Shown here piece by piece: positions 3,755-41,772 of a DNA stretch of 47,401 nt. The notes under the pieces are model-generated. The model was not told where the DNA came from and did not search any database. It worked only from the letters and a program-made list of their open reading frames with translations. Made by a program: the position numbers and the translations under genes. Origin of the DNA: a virus; IMG/VR virus record IMGVR_UViG_3300036791_000683, positions 1-47,401 of that record. One strand, written 5' to 3'. Within the stretch, counting starts at the first letter, position 1, and the number at the start of each line of letters is the position of its first letter.

Positions 3755-4116
3755 AAAACGAAGCCGACTATAAGCGCGAGCTGGTCGCGGAGGTGAAAGC
3801 CCTCCGCGGCGGCTGGGCGCGCCGGATCGAAGATCGCTGGGCGGTCGGCGTGCTCGATCTGATTTTGAAACTTCCAGATCATCCGCCGATCTTCGCGGAA
3901 GGCAAGATGATCGATGGACACAAATTTGGGCCGACCGAGCGGCAATGGGTCGAAGGCGAGCGCATGCAGCACGCAGGCTTGAAGGTCTTGCTGCTAGGCT
4001 GGAGAGAAGGAATCATGTCAGTTTCGCCCTGGGTCAAACAAGCCGACCGGCGCAAATGTGCAAATGGCGTCGACTTTATCCAAACCCTAAAGGAATATCT
4101 CAATGAACCTCGATGA
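3751..4116 (+). CDS. PD-(D/E)XK nuclease, VRR-NUC-like, 121 aa
   Basis: The length and pattern match small phage VRR-NUC or Holliday-junction-nuclease-like proteins. The core is visible: Asp36 in GVLDLIL, the E50-G51-K52 E-x-K motif after a beta strand, and Gln65 in the following PTERQ helix. These residues coordinate metal and cut DNA in the family. The start is GTG 3751, overlapping the preceding stop (GTGA). It probably acts in recombination, repair or packaging of replicative DNA together with the SSB-like protein and helicases of this arm. Confidence 0.7.
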   Translation: MKNEADYKRELVAEVKALRGGWARRIEDRWAVGVLDLILKLPDHPPIFAEGKMIDGHKFGPTERQWVEGERMQHAGLKVLLLGWREGIMSVSPWVKQADRRKCANGVDFIQTLKEYLNEPR

Positions 4117-4450
4117 TCATCTCCGCGACCGGCAGAACGCTTACGGTCCCTTTGAAGAGACCGCGGCGATCGCCCAGGCTCTTAAGCTATTGGTGCGCCG
4201 CGGCAAGAATTGGGACGCCCTCAGCAACGAGGGCAAAGAGGCGCTGGAGAACGTTTGCACCTTGATCGCTCGGATCTTGACTGGCGACGGCGCCGATCCG
4301 GAGCATTGGAACAACGCCGCCGGGTTCATGCGCATGCGCGGCGTCGCGCTCAGCTCTTCGCTCGAACTCGGGATCTCGCGCATCACCAATCGGCTGCGAA
4401 CGCGCACTTTAGAGCCGGTCAAGTCAGAGGATGGGGATGGCGCGGCATGA
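4103..4450 (+). CDS. DUF6378-like phage protein, 115 aa
   Basis: The protein shows the order typical of this phage family: R.NAYG near the N-terminus, a central helix, then RILTGDGADPEHWNNAAGF. The residues DPEHW..AAG match the DHW.DIAGY signature of DUF6378. Function is unknown. The C-terminal 40 residues are charged and probably disordered. It overlaps the nuclease gene by 14 bp and the next gene by 4 bp. Confidence 0.6.
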   Translation: MNLDDHLRDRQNAYGPFEETAAIAQALKLLVRRGKNWDALSNEGKEALENVCTLIARILTGDGADPEHWNNAAGFMRMRGVALSSSLELGISRITNRLRTRTLEPVKSEDGDGAA

Positions 4451-4653
4451 AATTCCCCAACCTGAACGAACGGCAGGAGCTGACCATGAATGACGCGCTG
4501 GAATCGTTGAAGGCGGTTGGTGTTTCTTATGTGCTGTTCGCCAAGGGTGAGGGGCCGGCCTGCGTGATGGTTAGCAACATCGAGGTGGAGAGCGCCTTTT
4601 CGCTGGTTGAAGAAGGCTTGAAAGTGGCGAAGAGCGATGCGCGATTTAACTGA
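4447..4653 (+). CDS. Small hypothetical protein, 68 or 55 aa
   Basis: ATG 4447 overlaps the previous stop as ATGA, giving 68 residues. ATG 4486 has a better ribosome site (AGGAG seven bases upstream) and gives 55 residues starting MNDALESLKAVG. Both may be used. The shared part forms an alpha-beta-beta-alpha pattern with SYVLFAKGEG and VMVSNIEVE strands. No family is recognised. Confidence 0.55.
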   Translation: MKFPNLNERQELTMNDALESLKAVGVSYVLFAKGEGPACVMVSNIEVESAFSLVEEGLKVAKSDARFN

Positions 4654-6402: not shown

Positions 6403-6431
6403 TTGACAACCTGAACCGATGGGATTAAATT
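6403..6431 (+). promoter_or_regulatory. Sigma70-like promoter TTGACA-N17-TAAATT
   Basis: A perfect -35 TTGACA (6403-6408), exactly 17 bases, then TAAATT (6426-6431). ATG 6438 follows six bases after the -10, so transcription would begin at or near the start codon. No ribosome site is present, which supports leaderless initiation of the helicase gene. Confidence 0.7.
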
Positions 6432-6437
6432 CCTAAC

Positions 6438-7862
6438 ATGTCCACACTCGATCCCGTCCAAATCGCCGCCCTGGACTTCGCTCGCGATAAGCGGGGCGTC
6501 GGCTGGTTTATTGAACAGGGCATGGGCAAGACGCTATGCGCGCTCGCCGAGTTCTCCTGGTGTCATAAACTAGAAGACGCCAACCGAATGATCGTCGTCA
6601 CCCCCAACAGCTTCAAACAGGGCTGGGTCGACGAAATTGAAAAACATGGGTTCGATTTCTGCTGGCATGTTTATCGATCGTCGCAAAAGGCCGCGGCGGA
6701 TATCTTTTTTAACAACGAGCCAGCCAAGCCGCCCGTTCTCATTATTAACTACGAAGCGCTCCGCTTGCCCGCGGTGTTTGCGACGGTGGCGAAATGGGCG
6801 GCTGCTGGCAAGACTTATTTGGCGATTGACGAGTCGATCAACATTAAAGGTCACAGCGCAGCGCAAACGCGCGCAGCGCATAGGCTAGCCTTGCTATGCT
6901 GCTTTGTGCGCCTCCTGACCGGGCGCCCGCAAACGCAAGGCCCGCATGACCTGTGGGGGCAGCTGCGCGCCATCGGGCTCTATGCCGATCGCAATTATTT
7001 TTCTTTCCGCGGAGCGTTCTGCGTCATGGGCGGCTGGAAAGACAAACAAGTGGTCGCAGCGAAGAACGTCGGCATTCTCGCCGACGCGATGAGGCCGGCG
7101 GTGTTTCAAGCGAAGAAAGCCGATTGGCTGCCCGAACTGCCGCGTAAGGATTACACCATTCGCGATTATTATATGTCGACCGAGCAGCTCAAACAATACC
7201 AGCAGATGGAGCATCAATTTTTGTTGGAAATTGAGCGCGGCGAATATGTCACCGTCGACGTGGCGATCGCCAAATACGCCAAGCTGGCACAAATCCAGTG
7301 TGGATTTATTTATGACGATGACCATTATATCCACACATTGGTGCGGCCGGAAAATAATCCGCGTCTCAATCTCCTCCTGCAATTGTTAGAGGAAGAAGTG
7401 GCCGGCAAAGCCTGCATCGTCTATCGGCATCGAGCCGTGATCGATATCTTAACGCGCGCCCTAAACGCTTATGACCCGGCTTGGATCATGGGGCGAATGA
7501 ACCCAGAGGACGTGAGCGAACAGAAAGAGCGCTTCAATAAGGACCCGCATTGCCGGGTCATCCTTTTGCAGGCCGAAGCCGCCAAATTTGGCCATACGCT
7601 GCTGGGCGGTCCAGGCTTGGAGGATTTGTGCCGAACCATGATTTTCTTCGAGAATTCCTATTCGATGGATACTCGCTCGCAGCTGGAGGACCGCATTCAT
7701 CGGCGCGGCCAGACCGGCGAGAGCGTATTGTATATTGACTTGTCGGGCTCGGCGTTGGATCGTCGGATTGTCAAAGCATTGCAACATAAAGATGCTTTGT
7801 ACCGGTCGGTGTTCACAAACCTTAAGCCCGTCAAGCCTATGGAGGCTCATTATGCTTCGTAA
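6438..7862 (+). CDS. SNF2-like DEAD/DEAH helicase, 474 aa
   Basis: The protein has the SF2/SNF2 motifs in order: Walker A GMGKT at residues 28-32, a TPNSFKQGW motif Ia region, D131-E-S in place of DEAH (motif II), a TGRP motif III near 160, and QLEDRIHRRGQ (motif VI) near 430, with a second RecA-like domain from about 300. It is close to the minimal size of phage SNF2-type proteins. It would use ATP to move on or remodel duplex DNA during replication or recombination. It is the first gene behind a strong promoter and appears leaderless. Its end overlaps the next gene by 11 bp. Confidence 0.85.
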   Translation: MSTLDPVQIAALDFARDKRGVGWFIEQGMGKTLCALAEFSWCHKLEDANRMIVVTPNSFKQGWVDEIEKHGFDFCWHVYRSSQKAAADIFFNNEPAKPPVLIINYEALRLPAVFATVAKWAAAGKTYLAIDESINIKGHSAAQTRAAHRLALLCCFVRLLTGRPQTQGPHDLWGQLRAIGLYADRNYFSFRGAFCVMGGWKDKQVVAAKNVGILADAMRPAVFQAKKADWLPELPRKDYTIRDYYMSTEQLKQYQQMEHQFLLEIERGEYVTVDVAIAKYAKLAQIQCGFIYDDDHYIHTLVRPENNPRLNLLLQLLEEEVAGKACIVYRHRAVIDILTRALNAYDPAWIMGRMNPEDVSEQKERFNKDPHCRVILLQAEAAKFGHTLLGGPGLEDLCRTMIFFENSYSMDTRSQLEDRIHRRGQTGESVLYIDLSGSALDRRIVKALQHKDALYRSVFTNLKPVKPMEAHYAS

Positions 7863-8502
7863 CATCCTTCTCAGCACGGTTCTTTTCACCACTCCCGCGG
7901 CAGCGGGGCTGGTCAATTGGGATCTCCCGGGTCCGCAAGGCAATCTCGGCGACAGCCATAATTTTCTCGCCAAGGGGATCGCCCTCGCAGTGAGCGGCTT
8001 CGCCTCGATCGGCGGTCCGGGAACGGCCTTGTTCGCCAACGATCGCGGCCCCGGCGAAACCGGGCTCGGCCTGGCCGACGATCCGACGGGCGATGACGAG
8101 ATCTCAGGCAGGAATTTCATTCAGCTCAATGTCAGCGGTCCGCTCGCGTCCCGCGTCGACAAGTTCAGTTTCGCCATGGAATCGTCCACTCAGGGGGAGC
8201 AATGGTCGGTGTTCGGCGCGACCGGCAATGACGGATCGGGATTGACGCCGCTGTTTGTCAATTTCAGCGATGAAAACACTCACACCCTGCCGGATGGGTT
8301 CAAGTTTTATGATTTCTTCTACAGCGGGGCGCCGATCGGTCAATGCGGCCGGGGCTGCAACGCCAATGTGCTATTGGGTTCGTTTTCCGGCGTCCAGGCG
8401 ATCCCTGAGCCCTCAACTTGGGCTATGGGGGCGCTGGGCTTCGGATTGCTGGCGTTCCTAGGCGTTCGTCGTCGTAAGCGTTCAAGTGCGTTCGCTCATT
8501 GA
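7852..8502 (+). CDS. Secreted protein with PEP-CTERM sorting signal, 216 aa
   Basis: A Sec signal peptide occupies residues 1-18 (MLRNILLSTVLFTTPAAA). A beta-rich Gly/Asp/Asn-containing domain follows. Residues 185-187 are Pro-Glu-Pro, then a hydrophobic helix (191-205), then R206-R-R-K-R210. This is the complete tripartite PEP-CTERM signal by which exosortase processes and anchors bacterial surface proteins. No exosortase is present in the phage, so host exosortase would be needed. ATG 7852 has GGAGG (7841-7845) and overlaps the helicase gene end, so it is co-expressed. Such a protein is unusual in a phage. Surface alteration or exclusion of other phages are hypotheses only. Confidence 0.8.
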   Translation: MLRNILLSTVLFTTPAAAGLVNWDLPGPQGNLGDSHNFLAKGIALAVSGFASIGGPGTALFANDRGPGETGLGLADDPTGDDEISGRNFIQLNVSGPLASRVDKFSFAMESSTQGEQWSVFGATGNDGSGLTPLFVNFSDENTHTLPDGFKFYDFFYSGAPIGQCGRGCNANVLLGSFSGVQAIPEPSTWAMGALGFGLLAFLGVRRRKRSSAFAH

Positions 8503-8531: not shown

Positions 8532-8999
8532 ATGGCAGCGGTACCAGTAGAAATTCGTGCGACGCTCTATGATTTGCAGAGTAAATCGTCTCGGGAGGTT
8601 TTCATTCAGGGCATGGCTGCGCTGACTGGCCTTGGCGTCGGCGGCGGGCCGATTATCCCCCCAAGTAATGGCGGGCAGCCGCCGGTTGATTGGGGTCCGG
8701 GCGGGCCTCCGCATCCGGCCTTTCCGATTTGGGGCGGACCGGGCGCCGGCTTCCCTGACAAGCCTGGTTATCCGCCGGTCGTTGGCGGCGGGCCGATCAT
8801 CCCGCCTAACGTGCCTCCTGGGCTACAGCCGCCGGCGCCGCCGAACCCCGGCGATCCGACGACGATAGTGCCGCCTCCCGCTGGCAGCCCTGGCTGGCCG
8901 GTGCAGCCGATCGCTATACCGCCGTACATCATCGTCAACTATCCGGGCGTCGGTCCGGTGGTGGTTGCGCCGCCGGCGCAGGCGCCACCGAGTGCGTAA
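8532..8999 (+). CDS. Pro/Gly-rich low-complexity protein, 155 aa
   Basis: After an ordered start, VPVEIRATLYDLQSKSSREV, almost the whole protein is Pro, Gly and hydrophobic residues. It includes two copies of GGGPIIPP (near residues 37 and 85) and a C-terminal IPPYIIVNYPGVGPVVV stretch. ATG 8532 has a strong AGGAGGG site. There is no signal peptide. Composition suggests an extended, possibly structural or interaction protein. No family is recognised. It follows the PEP-CTERM gene in the same operon. Confidence 0.7.
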   Translation: MAAVPVEIRATLYDLQSKSSREVFIQGMAALTGLGVGGGPIIPPSNGGQPPVDWGPGGPPHPAFPIWGGPGAGFPDKPGYPPVVGGGPIIPPNVPPGLQPPAPPNPGDPTTIVPPPAGSPGWPVQPIAIPPYIIVNYPGVGPVVVAPPAQAPPSA

Positions 9000-41226: not shown

Positions 41227-41459
41227 CCCGGCAGCTGAACCGGCCCAAAACGCCGGATGATTGGCGCGAGCGCCTAGCCACGTTCGAACGCCATCATCCG
41301 GATGACGAATCTGGCAAGCGCGTTTCGGTCTTGACCGTCGACGCCTATATGGCCAAACGCCGCGCCTCACGGCGGCCCGCGCTCCTTCGCATTGGGGCGT
41401 TCCTATGGGCTTTGCTGATTTTGGCCGCCCTTATCGTGATCCTCTATGATCAGGATTGA
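41223..41459 (+). CDS. Small C-terminally anchored membrane protein, 78 aa
   Basis: Residues 1-52 are charged and soluble. Residues 55-75 (LLRIGAFLWALLILAALIVI) form a single membrane helix near the end. The topology suggests a tail-anchored inner-membrane protein. ATG 41223 overlaps the preceding stop as ATGA, and its end overlaps the GcrA-like gene by 14 bp. No family is recognised. Confidence 0.6.
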   Translation: MTRQLNRPKTPDDWRERLATFERHHPDDESGKRVSVLTVDAYMAKRRASRRPALLRIGAFLWALLILAALIVILYDQD

Positions 41460-41772
41460 CGCCATCGCCAAGCTCTGGACGCAGGGCCGGTCCCTGACCG
41501 AGATTGGCCTTGCGCTCGGCCTAAGCCGCGGCGCCGTCGCCGGCGAGATCAATCGCGCGCGCCTTCGCCGCGACCCGCGTTTTTTAAAGTTTCGTCTCAG
41601 CCCGTTCGCCAAGCCGCCGCTTCCGCCGCGCGTCCTGGTCGACCTGCGCTTGCACGATTGCCGCTGGGCGGTCGGCCTGACGCCTGACGACCTGCACCTG
41701 TTTTGTGGCCAGCCTCAAGCCGCCGGCTCGCCTTATTGCGCCAAGCATCGGGATCGGGCGCAGCGCGGTTAA
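41446..41772 (+). CDS. GcrA-like regulator, 108 aa
   Basis: The N-terminus (residues 5-40, AIAKLWTQGRSLTEIGLALG then LSRGAVAGEINRARL) is the helix-turn-helix of GcrA-type proteins. The C-terminus keeps the family pattern C72-R-W, F-C87-G and P-Y-C98-x-x-H101, probably a zinc site. In Alphaproteobacteria GcrA binds sigma70 RNA polymerase and activates promoters with CcrM-methylated GANTC. A phage copy could redirect host transcription to phage promoters or tie it to methylation. Function here is inference. Confidence 0.75.
   Translation: MIRIDAIAKLWTQGRSLTEIGLALGLSRGAVAGEINRARLRRDPRFLKFRLSPFAKPPLPPRVLVDLRLHDCRWAVGLTPDDLHLFCGQPQAAGSPYCAKHRDRAQRG

Follow-up and report, generated by a model that had tools for sequence, protein, structure and literature searches.

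The window analysed here, meaning the whole stretch of 47,401 bases that makes up one IMG/VR virus record, is a podovirus genome encoding an SU10-type portal (PF23899, E 1.6e-147), an SU10 adaptor, a major head protein, a scaffold and a terminase, together with tail fibres, an ejection protein and a DNA primase. Among isolated phages, the portal finds its best matches in Ochrobactrum and Sinorhizobium phages. The genome also carries a GcrA-like cell-cycle regulator gene (41446–41772, + strand; PF07750, E 4.8e-16), and since GcrA is a regulator of the class Alphaproteobacteria, this points to an alphaproteobacterial host. An SNF2-type helicase gene (6438–7862, + strand; PF00176, phrog_62 DNA helicase) overlaps by 11 nt an open reading frame at 7852–8502 (+ strand), which begins with ATG, encodes 216 amino acids, scores above the PF07589 (PEP-CTERM) cut-off and has full-length relatives. 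Its likely ribosome-binding site, GGAGG (7841–7845, + strand), sits inside the 3' end of the helicase gene, 6 nt ahead of the ATG, and a hairpin over this site was no better than in shuffled sequences (z -0.9). A longer form starting from TTG at 7735 was rejected, as this start lies inside the helicase gene and the signal peptide is not at its start, and on the opposite strand stops break the frame in the same register. The sequence-only reading of this DNA had described the gene as translationally coupled to the helicase under a strong promoter. The overlap agrees with the coupling, whereas the promoter-like site (TTGACA-17-TAAATT, 6403–6431, + strand, just upstream of the helicase and matching the consensus at 10 of 12 positions) is a near-chance match: the region has seven such sites where chance alone would give 4.6 +/- 2.3. 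An MT-A70 type methyltransferase gene (PF05063, 5405–6397) lies upstream of the helicase, and a proline-rich ORF of 155 amino acids with no family match (8532–8999, + strand) lies downstream of the PEP-CTERM gene.

The protein has three parts. Residues 1–18 (7852–7905, + strand; MLRNILLSTVLFTTPAAA) form a short Sec-type signal peptide of basic, hydrophobic and AAA segments, recognised on inspection by hydropathy, the AAA motif and a position shared by all relatives, with cleavage after AAA called by eye. The body spans residues 19–182 (7906–8397, + strand), and residues 183–210 (8398–8481, + strand), which are AIPEPSTWAMGALGFGLLAFLGVRRRKR with a preceding Ala, make up the sorting signal, with PEP at 185–187, a hydrophobic stretch and RRRKR at 206–210, followed by a final SSAFAH. 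PF07589 matches residues 183–208 at 31.3 bits (E 1.9e-7; gathering score 20.7), while at the same place two of the three signal models, TIGR02595 (14.1 against 16) and NF035944 PEPxxWA (21.6 against 35), give scores below their cut-offs. Both the Sec signal and the complete PEP-CTERM signal that the sequence-only reading had proposed are thus present, with PF07589 but not TIGR02595 passing its threshold, and identity of the product as a PEP-CTERM protein is near certain. Judged by its signal, it is an exosortase substrate encoded by a genuine podovirus. A PHROG search gave no match for the protein, and among isolated phages there was no match to the protein, to its 34-residue tail or to members of the families fam0, fam1 and fam2 described below.

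We found full-length relatives of the window protein, whose body family we call fam3, in five sequences (L002, L003, L159, L081 and L082). Two phage contigs (L002 and L003) encode relatives with 47% identity, next to helicase, primase, recombination and virion genes, and a 69-kb contig (L159) encodes one with 32% identity. Bacterial relatives occur in a Sphingomonadales genome bin (36%) and in Bradyrhizobium erythrophlei (31%), and the family is rare in bacteria, being detected in one of 200 Bradyrhizobium-family genomes and in 2/385 Alphaproteobacteria, one of these two matches being marginal. The signal is retained in the relatives, which are not tail proteins, so that the body search came out in favour of the earlier proposal.

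A first scan of viral sequences returned 79 contigs with proteins in several unrelated body families, but its patterns included PEPSTWAM and were therefore biased to the signal, and body-only scans with the signal removed took its place. These recovered fam1 in 64, fam2 in 53 and fam0 in 65 uncultivated viral contigs, 182 in all, of which three had the gene cut by the contig end, leaving 179 complete genes. A PEP-CTERM-like signal ends 178 of these, as PEPxTW in 131, as PExxTW with the third Pro replaced in 41 and as PEP with other residues in six. In the sixth member of this last group (L322) the matched stretch had overrun the end of the gene, which itself terminates in EPSQWAM followed by a basic tail. 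The third Pro is absent in about a quarter of relatives, some of which may have a degenerate signal, and the scores of PExxTW members (16.6 and 17.1) fall short of the Pfam cut-off of 20.7. Relatives in L172, L016, L021, L159 and L077 pass TIGR02595. In three contigs (L333, L335 and L337, PEP-CTERM gene near 4001–4600) the fam0 body carries VPEPASLG-type tails, not PEPSTWAM, and this one body therefore occurs with two signal subtypes, as one would predict if the tail has to match the exosortase of the host. The finding is thus broader than the sequence-only reading saw, taking in several body families in unrelated phages, with a Sec-type signal in nearly all members and the PEP-CTERM signal as the sole part common to all body families. 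The sole exception among the 179 (L229:1294–1998) joins a fam1 body to a different hydrophobic and basic anchor, VPGPVVGAGLPGVIVGCGFLVLLAMTRRK, in place of PEP-CTERM. This protein has no Pfam or NCBIfam match, and its anchor may represent a further type of sorting signal or a membrane signal.

The bodies are under purifying selection, as median dN/dS is 0.13 in fam1 and 0.26 in fam2, and fam1 bodies have a mean column identity of 85%. We did not find fam0, fam1 or fam2 in the sampled alphaproteobacterial genomes, in a search that lacked a positive control for the three families; the same method recovered fam3 in B. erythrophlei. Bodies of fam1, fam2 and fam4 faintly resemble bacterial FxDxF PEP-CTERM proteins over their full length (NF038126; E 1e-6 to 1e-10, all below the curated 50-bit cut-off), which makes a bacterial origin of these families likely, while the window protein itself matches NF038126 in the tail only. 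Taken as a whole, the pattern leads us to lean slightly towards a class of exosortase substrates that recurs among phages and is largely specific to them, in which unrelated bodies would occupy interchangeable slots and bear a host-matched PEP-CTERM label for delivery to the surface by the exosortase of the host.

Examination of the surrounding genes showed that the order helicase, PEP-CTERM gene and convergent virion operon recurs in the window and in six other contigs (L020, L026, L032, L037, L041 and L056), and the body in this slot differs by phage, being fam3, fam1 or fam0. In other lineages the gene adjoins terminase or portal or separates the two (e.g. L039, L043, L053, L075 and L076), or comes just ahead of the capsid gene (L058, L059 and L074), and in L335 a fam0 gene sits between a gene in scaffold position and an SU10-type capsid gene, directly before the latter. 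Phage marker genes were found no more than about 4 kb away at 50 of 64 fam1 loci and 32 of 53 fam2 loci; three contigs (L029, L036 and L037) each have two different PEP-CTERM genes in tandem, and in some phages the gene is on the strand opposite to the virion genes. A search for integrase (PF00589) gave nothing in the window and a score over the cut-off in 6/39 records, so that lysogenic conversion does not account for every case. Genes for NusG/RfaH-like antiterminators (PF02357), a kind of regulator frequently associated with operons for polysaccharides, lie near the PEP-CTERM gene in two contigs (L159:9363–9878 and L337:2061–2636).

We also searched for the partner enzyme. Exosortase (PF09721) was found in none of 50 related viral records and in 22/25 bacterial genomes with PEP-CTERM relatives. 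This supports the earlier proposal that the phage has no exosortase of its own and, if the signal works, it must rely on that of the host. In bacteria, PEP-CTERM proteins follow a route of Sec export, retention by the C-terminal helix and exosortase-dependent sorting (PMC1569441, PMC9850573, PMC12188702), and have roles in adhesion at the surface and in flocculation (PMC9850573, PMC12188702). The window protein shares with the PEP-CTERM/exosortase (EpsH) system of Haft et al. 2006 (PMC1569441) the Sec-type signal, the PEP motif, the hydrophobic helix and the basic end; in that system, however, the bacterial genome also encodes the exosortase, whereas here the gene is viral and no exosortase was found in the viral records. 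PepA, a flocculation-associated protein (PMC9850573), is likewise a small exported PEP-CTERM protein and models an extracellular role, but its gene is bacterial and RpoN-dependent whereas the window gene is viral, and the PepA model meets the window protein in the tail only, far below cut-off (18.7 against 80 bits).

AlphaFold2 modelled the window protein as an all-beta sandwich (core pLDDT mostly 82–92) with a C-terminal helix. Foldseek returned weak, repeated matches of this model to carbohydrate-binding modules of galactose-binding-like fold, several of them among its top matches, with query TM-scores of about 0.3 and no match in this search at E <= 0.001 (best E 1.5e-3). Pfam identified no carbohydrate-binding module in the protein and a sequence-profile search of the PDB found no relative; going by the predicted fold, the body is possibly a sugar-binding module. 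Among viral proteins, the model of the window protein came structurally closest to A0A3G5AHA6, an uncharacterised protein of Sylvanvirus (E 4.1e-7, query TM-score 0.57). A fam1 model was too poor (pLDDT 56) and was set aside.

Our preferred reading, to which we give a probability of about 0.5, is that the window gene product is a phage-made substrate of the host exosortase that becomes anchored at, and masks or remodels, the surface of the infected cell. The protein would be translated together with the helicase of the replication operon and exported by host Sec, after which its C-terminal helix and basic tail would hold it in the inner membrane. Host exosortase would then cut near the PEP motif, a likely step, and release the protein to the outer surface or the exopolysaccharide, where the beta-sandwich body, if sugar-binding, may coat or cross-link surface glycans of the infected cell. 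The benefit to the phage may be surface remodelling, a block to superinfection or receptor mimicry, and the likeliest would be that phage receptors or capsule are masked or altered, so that competing phages are kept out and progeny do not stick to the dying cell. The location in the head module of several phages could mean late expression, with less room for superinfection exclusion, and is compatible with a late function, for instance one that keeps progeny from sticking to debris. A lipoprotein of phage T5, Llp (PMC9586334), offers an analogy in superinfection exclusion, since the job proposed for the window protein is likewise to reach the host surface by a host sorting route and block the receptor there, although Llp uses lipoprotein sorting, not exosortase, and is unrelated in sequence to the window protein.

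We judge surface masking or exclusion to be the most likely role, with matrix remodelling second. Under the latter, which we regard as clearly less likely, the phage protein would join the host exopolysaccharide and alter aggregation, thereby aiding spread or protecting infected cells, and the blocking of other phages would be secondary. With PepA, more polymer is bound and flocs form again (PMC9850573), a cyanobacterium without exosortase loses biofilm and motility (PMC12188702), and both the carbohydrate-binding-like fold of the window body, itself based on weak Foldseek matches, and the NusG/RfaH-like genes adjoining PEP-CTERM genes are consistent with such a role; however, no polysaccharide gene adjoins the window gene, and the NusG-like gene was seen in no more than those two contigs. 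That the substrate simply floods the host exosortase and leaves host PEP-CTERM proteins unsorted, making the body irrelevant, would account for a signal that alone is common to all body families. Such a decoy has no need of a folded body of 160–200 residues, and as the bodies are strongly conserved and the families maintained, a pure decoy is improbable. A structural or decoration protein of the virion with a chance hydrophobic tail could fit the genes found between scaffold and capsid or beside portal and terminase, but we consider it very improbable given the Sec-type signal of nearly all members, the replication-operon location elsewhere, the window included, the occasional placement opposite the virion genes and the lack of a PHROG match for the window protein. 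Misassigned host DNA, or a passing insertion without function, is suggested by three contigs that look host-derived near the match and hold several PEP-CTERM genes (L011, L023 and L050) and by the 31–36% identity of the bacterial relatives, and is equally improbable, as the window gene overlaps a phage gene in a coherent phage genome of similar composition, the body-only scans placed fam0, fam1 and fam2 in 182 viral contigs and the sampled bacterial genomes yielded none of them, and the bodies are under purifying selection.

If the surface-anchored substrate that we prefer is right, viruses appear to exploit an entire surface-sorting pathway of bacteria, much as phage T5 relies on the sorting of lipoproteins for Llp. 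In agreement with the sequence-only reading, which knew of no phage use of this system, we found no description of phage or viral use of PEP-CTERM or exosortase in the open literature, which takes in only a minority of subscription papers and preprints. The nearest published hint is a list of viral gene acquisitions in hot-spring contigs, which includes 13 TIGR03118 proteins with a putative exosortase-interaction end (PMC11003980); they appear there as an acquired cellular family, with no analysis of signal conservation or genomic context. The occurrence of PEP, PEA, PET and PES ends on one body provides small natural probes of exosortase specificity, and phage PEP-CTERM proteins offer a way to test the surface roles of PEP-CTERM proteins and possibly a new route of superinfection control in exopolysaccharide-making bacteria.

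Two further kinds of gene were seen beside the phage PEP-CTERM genes. Small, apparently secreted Cys-containing proteins (ACHxxSxWxYPxPQxC) are encoded near them in four contigs (L016:8972–9286, L062:3543–3833, L060:10380–10670 and L012:1939–2235). Likewise, Pro/Gly-rich ORFs are frequent neighbours, those of cluster 5 (e.g. L076:3503–4159) having PDQGLPG repeats, and the proline-rich ORF at 8532–8999 of the window holds a comparable place.
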